Translations under genes and position numbers: made by a program
Notes under the pieces: generated by a model
What the model was told of the DNA's origin: nothing
The model's database searches: none
Seen by the model: the letters and a program-made list of their open reading frames with translations, nothing else
Assembly (NCBI GenBank): GCA_945787955.1
Contig: CALZKF010000007.1
Span: 12,057-47,080, forward strand
DNA length: 35,024 bases
From: an uncultured Acidobacteriota bacterium
GTDB taxonomy: Bacteria > Acidobacteriota > Polarisedimenticolia > Polarisedimenticolales > Polarisedimenticolaceae
Direction: 5' to 3'
Shown here: piece by piece, positions 23,516 through 33,543 of the stretch
Numbering within the stretch: the stretch's first letter is position 1
Layout: every line of letters starts with the position of its first letter

Positions 23516-23639
23516 AATGGGGACATTCCACATTTGATTTCAATTCTTTTACTTACGCGGGATCGTCATCCAGGTTTAAACAGGAACCAGGAATTTATTC
23601 AGGTTCAGGAATTGCAAGATAAAGTGGAATGTCCCCATT
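23516..23639. repeat. Inverted-repeat element with GGGGACATTCC ends (16-bp arms, 92-bp interior)
   Basis: AATGGGGACATTCCAC (23516-23531) and GTGGAATGTCCCCATT (23624-23639) are exact reverse complements. They share TGGGGACATTCC with the element at 9521-9578. Confidence 0.9.
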
Positions 23640-24921
23640 AAATGATGGTGTTGTCCGGGATGATCGCTCCCCGGCGAACCACAACCAGACCATCACGAAT
23701 CACCCAGCCGCCGCCTTCCGCCTCCTGGACGCCGTCCTTGTTGATCACCTGGACGTTGTTCCCGATCCGGCTGTTCTTGTCGATGATGGCGTTTTCAACA
23801 ACCGTGCCTGTGCCGATGCCGATCGGCGGCGCCCATTTGGGAATTTTCCCGCTCTGTAGCTGCAGGCCGCTGCCCATGATCAGCGCCCGTTTCACCTTGA
23901 CGCCATGCAGCCGCGTGCCGATACCCAGCACCGCCTCCTCCACGTGGCTGTCGGTGAGGATCGCTCCCTCCGCCAACATCGTCCGGGACAGGGTGCAGTT
24001 GTCCAGCCGGGAAGCGGGCAGGTACCGAGGCCTGGTGTAGAACGGCCAGTCCGGATCGTTGAACCGGAACGGCGGGTTCGGGATCACCATGTCCATATGC
24101 GCTTCAAAGAACGACCGGATCGTGCCGATGTCCCGCCAGTAATCATCGAAGAAGTACGACTGTACCCGGTGGGTCCCGACACAGGCGGGAATGATGTCCC
24201 GGCCGAAATCAGTCAGGTCACTGTCCAGACACTGCAGTAATGTCTTCTTGCGGAACAGGTAGATCCCCATGGAGGCGATGTACGGGCGTTCGGAGCCGAT
24301 CCCGCGCTTCTCCATCAGCTCCGGATCGACATCCATCCCTTGCCGGTCTTCAGGGGTCGCCGGCTTCTCGCGGAATTCCATAATCCTGCCGTCACCGTCC
24401 ACACGGACCGCGCCGAAATCGGCGATCTCGCTCTCCGAGCAAGGCAGGACGCCGATGGTGATGTCGGCTTCTTTATCCAGGTGCTCCCGTAGCATCAGGC
24501 GGTAGTCCATGCGGTACATGTGGTCGCCGGACAGGATCAGCACCAGATCGCCTGGAACCCCGGCGATCAACCGCAGGTTCTGCCGGATGGCGTCGGCGGT
24601 GCCCATGTACCAGGTCTGGTTGTCCGGGGTTTGCTGGGCGGCCAGTATCTGGACGTAACTCGGCGTGAACTGGTCAAACTTGTAGGTCAGGTTGATATGG
24701 CGGTGCAGCGACGTGGAGTTGAACTGGGTCAACACCAGGATCCGCCGCATCTCGGAGTGGATGGCGTTGCTGATGGGGATATCGATGAGACGGTACTTAC
24801 CGGCGATCGGCACGGCCGGTTTGCTGCGCTCGTCGGTCAGGGGAGACAGCCGGGATCCCTGTCCGCCTCCCAGCACAGCGACGATCACGTCCCGGGCACG
24901 GTCATTCAATTCCTTCATCAT
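23638..24921 (-). CDS. glgC: Glucose-1-phosphate adenylyltransferase
   Basis: VIVAVLGGGQGSRLSPLTDERSKPAVPIAGKYRLIDIPISNAIHS, WYMGTADAIRQN, LSGDHMYRMDY: GlgC signature segments. Confidence 0.95.
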   Translation of the reverse strand: MMKELNDRARDVIVAVLGGGQGSRLSPLTDERSKPAVPIAGKYRLIDIPISNAIHSEMRRILVLTQFNSTSLHRHINLTYKFDQFTPSYVQILAAQQTPDNQTWYMGTADAIRQNLRLIAGVPGDLVLILSGDHMYRMDYRLMLREHLDKEADITIGVLPCSESEIADFGAVRVDGDGRIMEFREKPATPEDRQGMDVDPELMEKRGIGSERPYIASMGIYLFRKKTLLQCLDSDLTDFGRDIIPACVGTHRVQSYFFDDYWRDIGTIRSFFEAHMDMVIPNPPFRFNDPDWPFYTRPRYLPASRLDNCTLSRTMLAEGAILTDSHVEEAVLGIGTRLHGVKVKRALIMGSGLQLQSGKIPKWAPPIGIGTGTVVENAIIDKNSRIGNNVQVINKDGVQEAEGGGWVIRDGLVVVRRGAIIPDNTII

Positions 24922-24942: not shown

Positions 24943-25539
24943 TCAAAGACTCATGGTGCCTGTGGACAACCACCGCCAGCACGGTGCGCACAACCGGATC
25001 TTTTTGGTATCGAGATCCTGGAGGTTTCTGGTGGACGCATTGCCGCAGCGCGGATCGCCGCAATCCGGCAGGCCGACCAGTTGCCCTGCGCACCGCAGGA
25101 TCTCCTTGGCAAGCCTGGCCTTCTGTTTGTCCGGATCCGATTTCCGCCGATAAAAAGCTTCCCGCATCCGTTTTACCGAAACCAGCCCGGCCTTTCCCGC
25201 CGCTCCGGTCAGGCTGAAGACGAACTCCGTGTCATGCGTGTACATGTCCACGTCGGTGACCAGGACCAGGCAGGCCCTGCCCGCCCCTTCGACGCCTGAA
25301 TCGTCAACACCGATGTCCGATACTTTGCCCGCCCGCCCGCCGGCCAGGCTCAGCGAGGTCAGCAGTACAGCCGCCTTGTGTTGCCCCCGGGCAACATCCT
25401 CGGACCCACGTGGAAGGGGCACCACCTCCCGGAACTCCACCGGGCCTTTCAGCGCCTTGGCCACCAGGTGCAAGGCTGCTGCCACATCGGCCGGATCGAT
25501 CCGGCCCGCCGGCGCCACCGCAAGTTGGATTACCGCCAT
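24943..25539 (-). CDS. Archaemetzincin-like protein with degenerate zinc-binding motif
   Basis: CLVLVTDVDMYTHDTEFVFSLTGAAGKAGLVSVKRMREAFY resembles the archaemetzincin core. AKEILRCAGQLVGLPDCGDPRC...LCAPC aligns with KExxHELGHxxGLxHC..xxC...FCxxC. ATG at 25539 with GGGAGG upstream. Confidence 0.7.
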   Translation of the reverse strand: MAVIQLAVAPAGRIDPADVAAALHLVAKALKGPVEFREVVPLPRGSEDVARGQHKAAVLLTSLSLAGGRAGKVSDIGVDDSGVEGAGRACLVLVTDVDMYTHDTEFVFSLTGAAGKAGLVSVKRMREAFYRRKSDPDKQKARLAKEILRCAGQLVGLPDCGDPRCGNASTRNLQDLDTKKIRLCAPCWRWLSTGTMSL

Positions 25540-25586
25540 CGGAAACCTCCCGAAGATTGAACAGCCATTGTACCCCGACCGGGGAC

Positions 25587-25592
25587 TATAAT
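25587..25592 (+). promoter_or_regulatory. Candidate -10 element (TATAAT) for the mega-protein operon
   Basis: TATAAT 27 bp upstream of the preferred ATG at 25619. A well-spaced -35 was not obvious. Confidence 0.4.
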
Positions 25593-25618
25593 TGTTTGAT
25601 CCAACCAGCGGGGAGATC

Positions 25619-28600
25619 ATGGACGGCGCCAACACTGAACTGACCACCGCCCTCGAAATCGTGCTGGACCGCTCGCCGCAGGATGCGGCGGAGATTCTGG
25701 GCCAAGCCCTCAGGCAGGCCGCCGCCGACCCGGTAGCGGCCTCCGGTCTGGACCCGGCGATCATCACAGGCCTCGTGAACCATCGCAAGGTTGACGATGT
25801 ATTGGCGCTACTGGATCTAAAGCACCTGGCGCCCTTGGTCAAACGCTGCTGCACCCGCCTCGAGTCGGCCGGCAAGGCGCCGGCACTGCATCTGCGGGAG
25901 CAGGGCTGGGCCCTGCTGGACATCCTGCGCAGGTCCAGCCTGCTCCGCCGTCGCCCACGTGAAAAAACCGGTTGTTGGGCCGACAACATACTCGCCCTGG
26001 TGGAGCAATCCGACTTCCCCGTCGGTCCCCTGTTCCGCCTGCGGGTGGCGGCCTACGGGTCCAAGGTCCTGTTCCGAATCCACGAGCAAGGCGAAGTCCG
26101 CGCCCTGCACTGGCGGCAGGTCGCCCTGCGGGTCGAGGCGATCGCCCGAGGCCTGGTTGAACTGCACCCGGATCACGATCCGGGGCCGGTGGCGATCCTC
26201 TCGGAAAACCGATTGGAAATGGCCCTGGTAGACCTGGCCTGCCTGACCTCGGGCATCTATAACGTCATGATCCCGGCCAACTCCACCCCGGAGGATGTCG
26301 GCTTCATCCTGGACCATTCCGGGGTCGAAACGGTGGTGGTCTCCGGCACCCGGCAGTTGGCCAAGCTGGCCGGCGCCCGGGAGGCCCATGCAACGTTGAA
26401 ACATGTAGTGCTCATGGATTCGACGGCGGATCAGGCCCGGGACCTTCTGACCCTGGACATGTTGTCGGCACGAGGCAACCGGGTGCCTGCGGCGGAAATT
26501 CGGGAGCGTTCCCTGGCGGTGTCCATCGACGATCTGGCCACTACCATGTACACCTCGGGAACTACCGGAAAACCGAAAGGTATCCAGTTCACCCAGCGCA
26601 ATATCGTTTTCAAGCGCTTCGCACGGGCCCTGGCCCTTCCGGAGATTGGTGACGAAGACGTCTTCGTCTGTTACCTGCCGCTGTTCCACACTTTTGGACG
26701 ATTTCTGGAAATGCTCGGGGCCGTATTCTGGGGTGCGACTTACAACTTCGTCTTGAACCCGTCCGTTGAGACGCTGATGCGTGTCATGCAGAGCACTCTC
26801 CCCACCGTCTTCATCAGCGTGCCGAAAAAATGGATACAGCTCCACGATGCCATCATGCAGCAGGTCGACCCGATCACTGCCGGCGACGATGAGCTCAAGG
26901 CGGCGATCCGGGCGGTCACAGGCGGCCGGCTGCGCTGGGGTCTTTCCGCCGCCGGACACCTGAATTCGGAAATTTTCCGGTTTTTCCAGAGCCAGGGAGT
27001 GGAGCTGATGAGCGGTTTCGGCATGACCGAGGCCACCGGCGGCATCACCATGACCGCACCAAAAGAATACAAGGACGACTCCCTGGGGACGCCGCTTCCC
27101 GGGATTGAAATACGATTGGCCGCCGACGGCGAACTCCTGATTCGGGGCCCGTACGTCATGGCCGGATACCTCAACCCCCCTGAAGGTGAAGCTGAAATCG
27201 ATTCCGAAGGATGGTTCCCCAGCGGTGATCTGATGGAGATGGACCGGGACGGCTACATCAGGCTGGTGGACCGCAAAAAGGAAATCTACAAGAACATCAA
27301 GGGGGAAACGATCGCTCCCCAGAGAGTCGAGAACCCTTTCAGGGATTTCGAGTCCGTGGGCCGCGTGTTTCTGGTAGGTGACCACCGGGAATACAACACA
27401 GCCTTGATTTGGCCGAATCCGGAATACGCCGCCAAGGAGCTGGCCGGCCTGGATATCGGCGAAGTCAAGGCTCACTTCCGCTCGGTTGTGATCTCCGTCA
27501 ACAAGTTCCTGGCGCCGTTCGAGCGGATCGTTGATTTCGCCATCATCGATCGGGACCTGGACCCTGAAAAGGGCGAACTGACCCCTAAGGGCACACCCCG
27601 GCGGCGGACGGTAGAGGCCAATTTCGCCGAGGTCATAAAACGACTCTATCGCCGGACCATCCTCCACGTCGGCGGTCAGGACATAATCGTACCGAACTGG
27701 CTGTTCCAGGCTCTCGGTCTTGTGGCCCAGGACCTGGTGATCCGGGACAACCGCATCAGCCTCCCGTCCTCCGACCGCATGCTCACGGTGGAACGGATCG
27801 AAGACGGCCTGACCCGGGTCGGATCGTGCATTTACCGCCACCGCCCCGGCCCGCTGGAGATCGGTTCCCTGCTGACCGTGACGGCACTGTGGCTGGGCAA
27901 CGGGGAGATGGTCGATTTCATAGGGCTGGATCTGGCCCCCTTCGAGCGGCCGGGCCGGATCCGGGAGGGATTGTCCTGGCAGGGGTACTCCGACGATCTG
28001 GACGCCCCGCCGCAGATCGGCGAACGGCTCAGTGAACTCATCAATCTGGACAGCCCGGACATGGCGGACCTGCATATCGCCGCCATCGCCATATCCGCCG
28101 GGAGCAGCCATGACGGCCTGACCGCCATCGACTTCCTGAACAAGACGGTGACCGGCCAGGACGGCATCCTGGCCGACCCGGCTCGCCTGTTGCTGGCTCG
28201 AGCGGCCTATTCCGGCCACGAGGCGGTTCGTAAACGAAGTTTCCAGGTCCTGGCGCCGGTAGAGAAGGACGCCGCATTCCCGGAAACCCTGGGGATCTAC
28301 TTGACCCACGCCGGTGATGTGTTGGACGCCGAGACCCGGGAGAGTGTCTGCGAGGGAACGCTTTCTTCCGCAAAGCTGAGGGCGTTCTTCGCAGCAGCCA
28401 CCGAACTGTGTGAGGCCGATTCGATCGCCCCCGGCAACCAGGACCTGACCCGCCGGATCCTGCGGTTGCTGAGCGATTACGGTACGTTCCATCCCACCAG
28501 TTACTCAGAGGTCCGTGCGTTCCTGGCAAGGGAGATGATGTTCGCCGTCAGCGAGGATGTGAGGAACTATGCCGGTGATGCCTTCCAGCACCTGGTGGAC

Positions 28601-30379
28601 GGGTTCCGCCAGTGGCTGGGGCCACCCTCCCGCATCGCCGTCGACCCGGAGACCGGCCAGGAGTATCGCTGGGCCGATGTAGTGGTATTCGATGACATGG
28701 TCCCGGAAAACGACCGACTGAGAATGCTCAGCGCCCTGCAGAAAACCCCGTTCCTACGCGAGGCGGTATTTTTGTTCTCGAAAGGCGTTACCATCCGTCT
28801 CAACGACATTCCCCCCGGAGGAGTATTCATCCGCCTTCTGGGAAGCAATCACGGTAAGTCGGTATATCGCGCCACGGTCCAAACCCGCTTCAAAGGCTCC
28901 TTCGACCTCGCCGTGAATATCAACCACGACCTGACCCAGGAAGAGGTCCGGGAAGAGATATTCTGGCTGATCCTGTGCGGCGAGTCGCCTCAATTGCCGG
29001 CCCTGGCCGAGGAATTCGGCGGCTACTGGCAGGCCCAGGATCTCTGGAGCGAGGAGTTCATCGCCGGCGAAACCCTGGACCGGGCGATGCGGCGGCTGTC
29101 CCGCCGAGGCGCCGGCGGCGAACGGCTGGAAAACATCTGGCCGTTCCTGGCCTGGACCACCTTGAACGCCTATGTGGACTTCTGGCACCGTACCGGAACC
29201 CGCTGGGAAATCAGTGATCCGGAGATGCCCAACGTGGTCGCGTCGACACACGATTACCAGACCAGTGCCAGGCTGGTATCGGTCACCCGCCGGCAGAGGC
29301 ACCGGGGACTCGGCCCGATGCTGATCCGACTCATGGACCGCCTGCTGCTGGGGGTCGAGGACACCTACCCCCGCCTCAAGGGTCTGGTCGGGTGGCACAC
29401 AGTCCTGTCCTCGGTGCTGGAAGTGCTCGGGGAGGCTGAAGGTCTCACCGCTCTGAAGGAATTGGCGGGCAACCCGATCCGGGAAGACCTGGACGAGGCT
29501 TTGCCCCGGTTCCTTGAAGAGGTGGAACAGGACGGTTTCACGCCCCTGAAGGTTTTCTTCGCCATAGAACGGTACCGCCGGTGGGCCGAGCTGAGCTCGG
29601 ATCCGACGCCTGAGGCACGGGCCCGGACACTCCGGGAACTGTTCGAGACCTACGGTCTGGCCGCAGTCGTCGGAAACCAGCCGGAGACCCGGGTGCGGTT
29701 CTTCCGCAAAACGGTGTTCCAGAGTGGCGGGCAGTTGGAGACCGGCCTCAGGGAGATTGAAGCACGCCTTCGCAACCGGGCCATCCCACCTGACGATGTC
29801 GCCGACAGCATCGCCGACCTCAGGGGCAACAAGGAGTTGAGCGACGACGAGGACTACTTCCTGGCGCGTCTTTCATTCCCCCACCTCCGACCGGAAGACG
29901 CCGCCACCTTCGTGGAAGCCGATTTCGGTGGCCGCCAAACGAGCGAAGTGGTGGTCAAACAGGAGGACCGGGAAGGGAACCCGTTCCGGATTCGACATGC
30001 TCTGAATCCAAGGGAAGTCGGCCGGCTGCACCGCCTGTTCCTGGCGGCCAAACTGGACGTTCGATTCCGAATGGAGCACCAGTACCTGGTCGCCCTCAAT
30101 CAACGCACCCAGGTCATCGGCGGCATCTTCTACGAGGTCGGCGAGGGGGAGGATACCGCCCATCTCGAGAAGATCGTCGTAGCTGAGGCGTACCGCCGCG
30201 CCGGCGTGGCCGACGCCCTGATGCACGAGTTGTTCAACCGGTTGCAGGCCGCCGGATATCAGACCGTCACCACCGGCTTCTTCCGGCCGGAGTATTTTTA
30301 CGCCTACGGCTTCACCATCGAGAAGCGGTATGCCGGGTTGGTCAAAACGCTGCATTCGGCGGAAGAAGAGAAAGGCTGA
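25619..30379 (+). CDS. Multidomain protein: AMP-dependent acyl-CoA synthetase domain, ~600-aa uncharacterised region, C-terminal GNAT acetyltransferase
   Basis: TTMYTSGTTGKPKGIQFTQRN, SGFGMTEATGGIT, SEGWFPSGDLMEMDRDGYIRLVDRKKEIYKNIKGE (ANL family). C-terminal EKIVVAEAYRRAGVADALMHELFNRL...FYAYGF (GNAT). Start at MDGANTEL with GGGGAG upstream. Confidence 0.88.
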   Translation: MDGANTELTTALEIVLDRSPQDAAEILGQALRQAAADPVAASGLDPAIITGLVNHRKVDDVLALLDLKHLAPLVKRCCTRLESAGKAPALHLREQGWALLDILRRSSLLRRRPREKTGCWADNILALVEQSDFPVGPLFRLRVAAYGSKVLFRIHEQGEVRALHWRQVALRVEAIARGLVELHPDHDPGPVAILSENRLEMALVDLACLTSGIYNVMIPANSTPEDVGFILDHSGVETVVVSGTRQLAKLAGAREAHATLKHVVLMDSTADQARDLLTLDMLSARGNRVPAAEIRERSLAVSIDDLATTMYTSGTTGKPKGIQFTQRNIVFKRFARALALPEIGDEDVFVCYLPLFHTFGRFLEMLGAVFWGATYNFVLNPSVETLMRVMQSTLPTVFISVPKKWIQLHDAIMQQVDPITAGDDELKAAIRAVTGGRLRWGLSAAGHLNSEIFRFFQSQGVELMSGFGMTEATGGITMTAPKEYKDDSLGTPLPGIEIRLAADGELLIRGPYVMAGYLNPPEGEAEIDSEGWFPSGDLMEMDRDGYIRLVDRKKEIYKNIKGETIAPQRVENPFRDFESVGRVFLVGDHREYNTALIWPNPEYAAKELAGLDIGEVKAHFRSVVISVNKFLAPFERIVDFAIIDRDLDPEKGELTPKGTPRRRTVEANFAEVIKRLYRRTILHVGGQDIIVPNWLFQALGLVAQDLVIRDNRISLPSSDRMLTVERIEDGLTRVGSCIYRHRPGPLEIGSLLTVTALWLGNGEMVDFIGLDLAPFERPGRIREGLSWQGYSDDLDAPPQIGERLSELINLDSPDMADLHIAAIAISAGSSHDGLTAIDFLNKTVTGQDGILADPARLLLARAAYSGHEAVRKRSFQVLAPVEKDAAFPETLGIYLTHAGDVLDAETRESVCEGTLSSAKLRAFFAAATELCEADSIAPGNQDLTRRILRLLSDYGTFHPTSYSEVRAFLAREMMFAVSEDVRNYAGDAFQHLVDGFRQWLGPPSRIAVDPETGQEYRWADVVVFDDMVPENDRLRMLSALQKTPFLREAVFLFSKGVTIRLNDIPPGGVFIRLLGSNHGKSVYRATVQTRFKGSFDLAVNINHDLTQEEVREEIFWLILCGESPQLPALAEEFGGYWQAQDLWSEEFIAGETLDRAMRRLSRRGAGGERLENIWPFLAWTTLNAYVDFWHRTGTRWEISDPEMPNVVASTHDYQTSARLVSVTRRQRHRGLGPMLIRLMDRLLLGVEDTYPRLKGLVGWHTVLSSVLEVLGEAEGLTALKELAGNPIREDLDEALPRFLEEVEQDGFTPLKVFFAIERYRRWAELSSDPTPEARARTLRELFETYGLAAVVGNQPETRVRFFRKTVFQSGGQLETGLREIEARLRNRAIPPDDVADSIADLRGNKELSDDEDYFLARLSFPHLRPEDAATFVEADFGGRQTSEVVVKQEDREGNPFRIRHALNPREVGRLHRLFLAAKLDVRFRMEHQYLVALNQRTQVIGGIFYEVGEGEDTAHLEKIVVAEAYRRAGVADALMHELFNRLQAAGYQTVTTGFFRPEYFYAYGFTIEKRYAGLVKTLHSAEEEKG

Positions 30380-30380
30380 C

Positions 30381-30956
30381 GTGGCCGATCACGAAGCAAC
30401 CGCCCTGCTCTCGCAATGGAGAAAAGGAGACGACAAGGCGCTGGACGAGCTCATGCCGCTGGTTCACGCCGAATTGCACCGGCTCGCATCCGGCTACATG
30501 AGGCACGAGAACAAGAACCATACCTTGCAGGCGACCGCCCTTATCCACGAGGCTTACATCCGGCTGATCGATCAACGCAACGTGGAATGGAAAAACTCGG
30601 TGCACTTCATCGCCCTGGCAGCCAATACCATGCGCAGGATCCTCGTGGACCATGCCCGTGGCCGGGGCAGCGCCAAACGGGGCGGCGGAATACGCGACAT
30701 ACCTCTTGAAAACGTTCACGAGGTCGCGACGGAACACAATCCGGATCTGGTTGCCCTGGACGATGCGCTCCAGGAACTCACCGGGTTGGATCCGGATCTT
30801 GCCAGGATCGTGGAACTTCGTTATTTCGGCGGATTGAACAGTGATGAAATAGCGGAGGCGATGGAGATATCCTCGCCGACCGTTACCCGTCGCATGAAAA
30901 TGGCCAGGGCCTGGTTGCACCGGTACCTGAAGGGAGATCCGGGCGATGGACGCTGA
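30381..30956 (+). CDS. ECF-family RNA polymerase sigma factor
   Basis: ALDELMPLVHAELHRLASGYMRHENKNHTLQATALIHEAYIRLIDQ... and sigma4-like LNSDEIAEAMEISSPTVTRRMKMARAWLHRYL. GTG at 30381 preferred over ATG 30330, which lies inside the upstream gene. Confidence 0.9.
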   Translation: MADHEATALLSQWRKGDDKALDELMPLVHAELHRLASGYMRHENKNHTLQATALIHEAYIRLIDQRNVEWKNSVHFIALAANTMRRILVDHARGRGSAKRGGGIRDIPLENVHEVATEHNPDLVALDDALQELTGLDPDLARIVELRYFGGLNSDEIAEAMEISSPTVTRRMKMARAWLHRYLKGDPGDGR

Positions 30957-33543
30957 AAGGTTCGCACGGGTTGAGGCGATTTTCCAGGAGGCGCTCCCCC
31001 TTTCGGGACTGGAGCGGGATGACTGTCTGGCCCGCAGGTGCGGGGACGATTCGGACCTGAAACAGCAGGTCCTGTCCCTTCTGGCCGCTCACGACCAGGC
31101 GGGCGACCTGCTGGACCGGCCGGTAGTACCCCGCAGGCCCGACCAGGGACGGCTGGCGGAAACCAGGATCGGTCCTTACAAGCTTCTGAGAAAAATCGGC
31201 GAGGGCGGTATGAGCGAGGTCTACCTCGCGGTGCGCGCCGATGACGAATACCAGAAGCGGGTCGCACTGAAGATCATCCGCCAGGACCTGGACCGTGATG
31301 AGATGCTGCGGCGGTTCCGGATCGAACGACAGATCCTGGCCGGCCTGAATCATCCCAACATCGCCACCCTGTTCGACGGCGGCACCACCGAAGACGGGCT
31401 ACCGTTTTTCGTCATGGAGTACATCGACGGCACGCCGATCGACCTGTACTGCGACGAAAACGGCCTGACCCTTCCCCGGCGCGTGGAGCTGTTCCGGTCG
31501 GTCTGTTCGGCGGTGCAGTTCGCCCATCAGAACCTGGTCATCCACCGGGACATCAAGGCGTCCAATATCCTGGTCACCGCCGACGGTACGCCCAAACTGC
31601 TGGACTTCGGGATCGCCAAGCTGATCAACCCGGACCATCTGGCCGGCGACATGGAATTCACCATCACCGGAGTCCGGCCGATGACCCCCCGTTACGCCAG
31701 CCCGGAACAGATCGAGGGACGCCAGGTTGGAACGCCCAGCGACATCTATTCCCTGGGAGTCCTGCTGTACATCCTGCTGACCGGAGTACGCCCCCACCGG
31801 CTCAAGGGCCGCCCCGCCACCGAGCTGAGCAGGATCATCCTGGAGGAAGACGCCGAACGACCAAGCACCGCCGTGGCCCGCGCCGGCAGCTCCGTGCCCA
31901 ACATCGAACCGGGGCAATTGCAGCGGCAACTGACCGGGGATCTGGACAACATCATCCTGAAGGCGCTGCGTAAACAGCCTCAGAGGCGCTACCCGTCGGT
32001 GGAACATTTCGCCGAGGATCTCCGCAGGCACCAGGCCGGGTTGCCGGTGATGGCCCGCAAAGACACCTTCGGCTACCGGGCACACAAGTTCATCCGCCGC
32101 AACCTCCTGGGCGTCAGCGCCGCGGCGGTCATCATGGCGCTGGTTGTGGCGTTCGGCGTGGTCATGGCGATCCAGGCCAACCGCATCCGCCATGAGCGGG
32201 ACCAGGCCCAGCTGGAGCGTGACCGGGCGGAGCAGGTGGTCGGCTTCATGGAAGAGATTTTCGGCGTCACCGATCCGTACGAGGCGGACGGAGAAGAATT
32301 GACGGCGTCGGAAATCCTGGAGCGCGGGGCGGCCCGTGTCACCGGCGAACTGAACGATCAGCCGATCGTTCAGGCCACTCTGTTGCAGAAGATCGGCAAC
32401 GTGTACCTCCACCTGGGGCGGTACGACCAGGCGGAACCGGCCATGAAGCAGGCCCTTGAGATCCGGCGGCGGGAACTGTCCCCCGGGCACCACGATATCG
32501 GCAGATCCCTTCAGAGCCTCGGCCTCCTCCACGCCCAGAAGGGCGATCTCGAGAAAGGCGAGCAACTGATCCGGGAGGCGGTCCGGATCCTGGTGGCCGC
32601 CGAGACGACTCCCGGTGAGTACTCGGTCAAGCCCCGGCTGGAACTGGGGGTAGTTCTACGGAAAAGCGGCCAGTACGAGGAAGCCGAACAGGTGTATACC
32701 GCCGTTCTGGAGCTGCAGCACAACTTCAAAGACGACGACGTCCTGGCGTCGGCAAAGAACAACATGGCTGCGCTTCTGGCAAGCACCGGCCGGCTGGAGG
32801 AGGCCGAGCTGATGCTCCAGGAAACCCTGGCCCTTCGCAGGAAGGTCCATAGTGACCTCCATCCCCAGACCGCCCAGGCTCTCAGCAACCTGGGCGCGGT
32901 GCTGGGCATGCAGGGAAAATACGACGAGGCGGAGCCGCACCTGCGGGAATCGCTGGCATCGTTCAGGGAAGTGCTGCCTGCCGGACATCCGTCCCTGGTG
33001 GAAGCGCTCAACAACCTGGGGAAGCTGCTGCGCAGGATGGGTAAAACGGTCGAGGCTGAACCGCTGGTGCGGGAGGCGCTGGAGATCCAGCAGTCCACAG
33101 CCGGACCGGGACATCCCCAGGTGGGGATCCTGTACGCCACACTGGCCGAACTGCTACAGGCCCAGAAGCGCTATGACGAGGCGGAAGACAGTATCCGCAA
33201 GGCGGTCGCCATCTCCAAAGCGGCCTATTCCGGGCCCCACGTCAGCACGGGCAACGCCCTCATCCGCCAGGGCATGCTCACCATGGACCAGGGGATGCCG
33301 GAAGATGCCGAGCCGCTTTACCGGGAGGCACGGGAGATTTACCAGGCGACCCTGGCGGAAGGCCACTGGAAGCATGGCGGCGCTGAGAGCCGGCTGGGCG
33401 AAAGCCTGGCCGCCCAGGGCAAGCTGGAAGAAGGACTGGCCCTCATGCGGTCCGGACTGGCCACCCTGGAGGCCGGACTGGGCCCGGATCACCCCGGCAC
33501 CCGGGAGGCCAGGGAGCGGTTGGATCGGATCCGCCACCCATAA
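30946..33543 (+). CDS. Serine/threonine protein kinase with TM segment and C-terminal TPR repeats
   Basis: KIGEGGMSEVYLAVRADDEYQKRVALKII, VIHRDIKASNILVTADGTPKLLDFGIAKL; TM (LLGVSAAAVIMALVVAFGVVMAI); many TPR units of the type GRYDQAEPAMKQALEIRRR. Confidence 0.95.
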   Translation: MDAERFARVEAIFQEALPLSGLERDDCLARRCGDDSDLKQQVLSLLAAHDQAGDLLDRPVVPRRPDQGRLAETRIGPYKLLRKIGEGGMSEVYLAVRADDEYQKRVALKIIRQDLDRDEMLRRFRIERQILAGLNHPNIATLFDGGTTEDGLPFFVMEYIDGTPIDLYCDENGLTLPRRVELFRSVCSAVQFAHQNLVIHRDIKASNILVTADGTPKLLDFGIAKLINPDHLAGDMEFTITGVRPMTPRYASPEQIEGRQVGTPSDIYSLGVLLYILLTGVRPHRLKGRPATELSRIILEEDAERPSTAVARAGSSVPNIEPGQLQRQLTGDLDNIILKALRKQPQRRYPSVEHFAEDLRRHQAGLPVMARKDTFGYRAHKFIRRNLLGVSAAAVIMALVVAFGVVMAIQANRIRHERDQAQLERDRAEQVVGFMEEIFGVTDPYEADGEELTASEILERGAARVTGELNDQPIVQATLLQKIGNVYLHLGRYDQAEPAMKQALEIRRRELSPGHHDIGRSLQSLGLLHAQKGDLEKGEQLIREAVRILVAAETTPGEYSVKPRLELGVVLRKSGQYEEAEQVYTAVLELQHNFKDDDVLASAKNNMAALLASTGRLEEAELMLQETLALRRKVHSDLHPQTAQALSNLGAVLGMQGKYDEAEPHLRESLASFREVLPAGHPSLVEALNNLGKLLRRMGKTVEAEPLVREALEIQQSTAGPGHPQVGILYATLAELLQAQKRYDEAEDSIRKAVAISKAAYSGPHVSTGNALIRQGMLTMDQGMPEDAEPLYREAREIYQATLAEGHWKHGGAESRLGESLAAQGKLEEGLALMRSGLATLEAGLGPDHPGTREARERLDRIRHP

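Follow-up and report, generated by a model that had tools for sequence, protein, structure and literature searches.

An archaemetzincin relative without a catalytic zinc site, conserved next to glgC in the sampled genomes of Candidatus Polarisedimenticolales

What can an archaemetzincin still do after it has lost the residues with which its family binds the catalytic zinc? This question is raised by a gene, here called dAMZ, in the window, which is the whole stretch of 35,024 nucleotides of Acidobacteriota DNA that was analysed. A sequence-only reading had described dAMZ as an archaemetzincin with a dead zinc site and had proposed for it a non-peptidase function such as binding or scaffolding. 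Its open reading frame, strand, length and motif were all borne out; the motif does start at 25060, and its end is corrected here from 25110 to 25107. The features on which the argument rests are as follows.

24943..25539, minus strand: dAMZ, pseudo-archaemetzincin gene of 198 aa (open reading frame, M54 profile, orthologues in 10/10 genomes of the order, dN/dS ~0.1)
25546..25551, minus strand: Shine-Dalgarno sequence GGGAGG, 6 nt 5' of the dAMZ ATG, read directly
25114..25173, minus strand: basic segment specific to the clade, residues 123-142, KRMREAFYRRKSDPDKQKAR, (near-)invariant in the ten orthologues and not in canonical members
25060..25107, minus strand: former zinc-binding and catalytic motif KEILRCAGQLVGLPDC, residues 145-160, in the place of KExxHExGHxxGxxHC
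25045..25062, minus strand: first half of the predicted Cys4 structural zinc site, C160-X4-C165, with Cys in 10/10 orthologues and likewise in each canonical row that has letters there
24979..24990, minus strand: second half of the predicted Cys4 structural zinc site, C184-X2-C187, with Cys in 10/10 orthologues
23638..24921, minus strand: glgC, ADP-glucose pyrophosphorylase of the plant/cyanobacterial type (Pfam NTP_transferase and LbH_GLGC, PDB match, adjacency in 10/10)
25592..30379, plus strand: divergent neighbour, AMP-binding ligase fused to a GNAT domain, a neighbour in most, not all, of the order

The relationship of dAMZ to the archaemetzincins was confirmed by profile searches. In a direct hmmscan it matches Pfam PF07998 (M54) with 38.8 bits and E=1.3e-9, above the gathering score of 24.4, and all ten orthologues match this profile at E <= 0.01. 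A genome-wide search with PF07998 gave 0 matches and missed dAMZ, presumably because of its prefilter. The match to NCBIfam NF033823 (archmetzin; E=1.6e-23) reaches 83.5 bits and lies under the curated cut-off of 145 bits. Among known structures, dAMZ matches 3lmc (E=1e-10) and 2x7m (E=4e-6), and a profile built from the ten orthologues matches 3lmc at 6.7e-22. The archaemetzincin motifs DxxRgQ, VDL[YF], SxxRL and KE are retained together with the Cys4.

Alignment of the motif upheld the four substitutions that had been read from the letters. The family pattern HExxHxxGxxH has become R-C-xx-Q-xxGxx-D in dAMZ, with R149, C150, Q153 and D159 in the places of H, E, H and H, while the structural cysteines C160, C165, C184 and C187 are kept in the spacing CX4C-X18-CX2C. 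The methionine of the Met-turn (CxM) is also gone and is replaced by Asn167; it is retained in three of the ten orthologues and absent from the other seven. None of the four catalytic residues is present in any of the ten orthologues, whereas all four cysteines are present in every one. The former catalytic positions vary across the clade as R/M/Q, C/A/M/T/V, Q/R/S/K and D/E/K/A; the first former histidine is Arg in 8/10 and the third is Asp or Glu in 8/10. The two metals of the family therefore come apart in dAMZ, in that the structural Cys4 is kept and the catalytic site is not, and it follows that the archaemetzincin fold is useful without catalysis. Mutation of the Cys4 destabilises MkAmzA and inactivates CarG (PMC3427221), which may explain why the cysteines survive in dAMZ in the absence of catalysis. 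By analogy with AfAmzA, MkAmzA and CarG, the Cys4 would still hold one structural zinc that keeps the C-terminal domain together.

Orthologues were searched for in the class and in 396 genomes of the phylum Acidobacteriota. Full-length dAMZ orthologues with 32-88% identity are present in all ten sampled genomes of Candidatus Polarisedimenticolales, and none was found elsewhere among the 396 genomes, where other matches score far lower and are canonical wherever their motif was read. When all fetched homologues were tabulated, H-E-H-H was present in 81 distinct rows and missing from 11, namely the ten dAMZ orthologues and one distant RHS-type protein. Further homologues with the motif loss, which the sequence-only reading had left to a wider search, thus exist throughout the sampled order, and the motif of the close relatives is not intact. 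A scan of GTDB contigs, which reaches close relatives only, returned as its sole match the same-genus copy of Candidatus Polarisedimenticola svalbardensis, the named relative by which the window is assigned to Candidatus Polarisedimenticolales, and no dAMZ relatives were found in viral contigs or plasmids.

In a maximum-likelihood tree, the ten dAMZ proteins form one group with support of 99/96, which is intact in 200/200 bootstrap trees. Its stem is long, with about one change per column, and the sister group is obscured by long branches. Besides dAMZ, families f2 and f3 carry canonical copies at another locus, and the group stands apart from these in the tree. In family f1 (six genomes, one of them a single 6-Mb contig that is 99% complete), dAMZ is the only archaemetzincin homologue found. 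Two further observations came from the same material. A separate, well-supported group of archaemetzincins with the canonical motif HExGHxFxxxHC (L088-L101, from family f30 and others of the phylum) lies distant in the tree from the other canonical archaemetzincins of Acidobacteriota. The distant RHS-type protein (L106, G255:C1, minus strand, 2-1633) is an RHS/YD-repeat-like membrane protein whose archaemetzincin-like N-terminal part reads FTDADMY...AAVISSNRM...RRILLKDVGIVY and has neither HExxH nor Cys4; this part is a further archaemetzincin-like domain that is inactive and does not belong to the glgC-linked clade.

Comparison with the same-genus copy gave a dN/dS of 0.10 (NG86) and 0.08 (YN00), similar to the values of neighbouring genes on the same contig pair (glgC 0.03-0.13, ABC ATPase 0.09). 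The purifying selection for which dN/dS had been named as a check was thus found, with no sign of neutral decay. Together with the missing motif in 10/10 orthologues, the open frame and the Shine-Dalgarno sequence, these values bear out a non-peptidase function, and it is well supported by sequence comparison that dAMZ is a constrained pseudoenzyme and not a peptidase. The automatic label "Zn-dependent protease" would mislead for these genes.

The gene downstream of dAMZ is constant. In 10/10 genomes of the order, dAMZ is directly followed by a codirectional glgC, across junctions that range from -4 to 58 bp; in the window, glgC starts 21 bp past the dAMZ stop. At one locus (L031), the glgC match begins 12 nt past the dAMZ stop, and no ATG, GTG or TTG start was readable by script. 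The best PDB match of the dAMZ-linked GlgC is 1yp2, the potato small subunit (4.3e-106). This glgC is the only one found in f1 and one of two in f2 and f3; the order also has glgA (glycogen synthase), which in one genome is a fragment at a contig end. The outer neighbours, a CNT-type nucleoside transporter and the AMP-ligase/GNAT fusion, are in many cases shared, though not in all. Since they vary between genomes, it is the dAMZ-glgC pair that is most stable in this locus. The adjacency may partly be inherited synteny, because the order of the transporter and the AMP ligase is partly conserved too. The glgC operon and its conservation across the order were missed by the sequence-only reading and are new here, and no paper pairing an archaemetzincin with glgC was found in the library searched. 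On the other side of dAMZ, the fusion protein of the window has 1595 aa, with the AMP-binding ligase, a long middle part without an assigned domain and a C-terminal GNAT acetyltransferase. At 30330-33543 (plus strand), a gene for an ECF sigma factor (PF07638) overlaps with one that encodes a Ser/Thr kinase carrying TPR repeats.

Several comparisons bear on how close the tie to GlgC is. No dAMZ was found in the short flanks of the unlinked orthologues of this plant-type glgC in the class. The distances of dAMZ and glgC are correlated (r=0.66) over 45 non-independent pairs, at a level indistinguishable from shared phylogeny. Between linked GlgC proteins and their unlinked relatives, just two weak columns were specific to dAMZ linkage, so this comparison gives no reason to assume a dedicated interface with GlgC. 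A consensus search for a promoter-like site found none.

The clade also differs from its canonical relatives in charge. The dAMZ proteins have a pI of 8.8-10.3, against a canonical median of 6.5 calculated from the aligned part only. The basic segment has the clade consensus RRLREAFYRRKADPxKQRAR and leads into the former active-site helix. Clade-specific invariant residues are R37, P41, E127 and R132, and R131, K133 and K138 are nearly invariant; they cluster ahead of or at the start of this helix (REAFYRRKADPxKQRxRL), apart from R37/P41. A structure model of dAMZ with two sequences was unusable (pLDDT 36, pTM 0.28), and the placement of the basic residues rests on alignment with 3lmc. Because the clade is basic and its invariants concentrate near the former helix and at R37/P41, these data suggest that a surface of positive charge surrounds the emptied cleft and serves in binding.

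Taken together, dAMZ may be a functional non-peptidase archaemetzincin that serves as a co-expressed, zinc-stabilised adaptor or regulator and couples glgC expression or GlgC activity to a signal, a reading to which a probability of roughly 0.5 is given. The catalytic ligands, the general-base Glu and mostly the Met-turn have been lost, while purifying selection has preserved the scaffold and the Cys4 in all sampled genomes of the order. The old cleft, lined by Arg/Lys and acidic at the third ligand position, could together with the basic segment now form a surface that binds an anionic ligand, an acidic protein or a nucleic acid. Through it, dAMZ would link glgC expression or GlgC activity, and hence glycogen synthesis, to a signal, in a role modelled on CarG, which is active only via a partner encoded next door. 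This role appears the most likely one because dAMZ consistently comes first in a glgC operon whose junctions are short or overlap. The functional link between dAMZ and GlgC is inferred from gene order only. The binding or scaffolding function proposed earlier is likewise still conjecture, and it is strengthened by the CarG precedent (PMC3427221, PMC8156234).

Other functions can be imagined for such a protein. dAMZ could be a CarG-like transcriptional adaptor whose RNA-polymerase-associated or DNA-binding partner is encoded elsewhere, with its place ahead of glgC being incidental or autoregulatory. CarG itself is an archaemetzincin without proteolytic activity, its Cys4 spacing is identical and it works through CarD alone, and the profile NF033824, named "non-proteolytic archaemetzincin-like", weakly matches all ten members. 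However, the dAMZ score of 59.9 bits is far under the curated cut-off of 250 bits, and CarG retains the three zinc histidines with only Glu changed to Gln, whereas dAMZ retains none. In addition, the CarD-CarG pair is known in the literature from Cystobacterineae only, and the CarD_TRCF proteins of the order, judged by the lengths of untranslated frames, are apparently limited to Mfd-length and short standalone forms, of which the short one was not located near dAMZ. This possibility is regarded as unlikely.

The charge of the clade allows a nucleic-acid binder that would use its basic segment and former cleft to contact RNA or DNA, such as the mRNA leader of its own glgC, and exert post-transcriptional control. 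The high pI and the invariant Arg/Lys segment agree with this, as do the tight dAMZ-glgC junctions, one of which has a 4-nt overlap. Basicity by itself is weak evidence, however, CarG has no DNA-binding capacity, and we know of no nucleic-acid-binding archaemetzincin; such a function is doubtful. Just as tentative is a direct role in which dAMZ has been recruited to ADP-glucose pyrophosphorylase as its dedicated protein regulator or as a subunit, and in which the lost zinc site of dAMZ has turned into a basic pocket that would sense sugar phosphate, phosphate or pyrophosphate. ADP-glucose pyrophosphorylase is generally described as being under small-metabolite control, and dAMZ is a concrete candidate for control of GlgC at the protein level.

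It is improbable that dAMZ is still an enzyme that has gained a new metal site or another active centre on the same scaffold. Unlike in canonical members, D96 and D175 never vary within the clade, but no former catalytic position is conserved across the clade as a metal-binding or catalytic residue, and no invariant new cluster of His, Cys or Asp is seen besides the Cys4. The loss of the catalytic residues might also indicate a pseudogene in progress, which is hardly credible and is contradicted by conservation across the order, dN/dS of ~0.1, the retained Cys4, the open frame and the ribosome-binding site.

The co-expressed adaptor or regulator, as the preferred reading, can be set beside the known systems. 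dAMZ shares by profile the scaffold of the M54 archaemetzincins (AfAmzA, MkAmzA; PDB 3lmc, 2x7m, 3zvs, 4axq). Unlike these near-neutral or acidic proteins, it is basic, lies in a glgC operon and lacks the three zinc histidines and the Glu, with the Met-turn lost in 7/10. In human AMZ1, which is described as an aminopeptidase, only the third zinc ligand is changed (PMC3427221), whereas dAMZ has lost every ligand. Among characterised proteins, the nearest precedent is found in Myxococcus xanthus with CarG, a non-proteolytic archaemetzincin with the motif HQx2Hx2Ex2HCx4CxMx16Cx2C, two zinc ions and no protease activity (PMC8156234). It functions only via a tight complex with CarD, the product of an adjacent, translationally coupled gene (PMC8156234, PMC9304148). 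CarG and dAMZ are alike in the spacing CX4C-X18-CX2C and in being encoded beside another gene; they differ in that CarG keeps HQx2Hx2Ex2HC with its two zinc ions (PMC8156234) while dAMZ has no His ligands, and in that the neighbour of CarG is carD and that of dAMZ is glgC in 10/10. NF033824 (Myxo_non_zincin) is probably the CarG family, to judge from its name, and by score, motif and neighbourhood dAMZ is not in the CarG equivalog family. Dead archaemetzincins were thus already known from CarG, and dAMZ represents a second, far more disabled clade that is fixed throughout a bacterial order and linked by its gene neighbourhood to glycogen synthesis.
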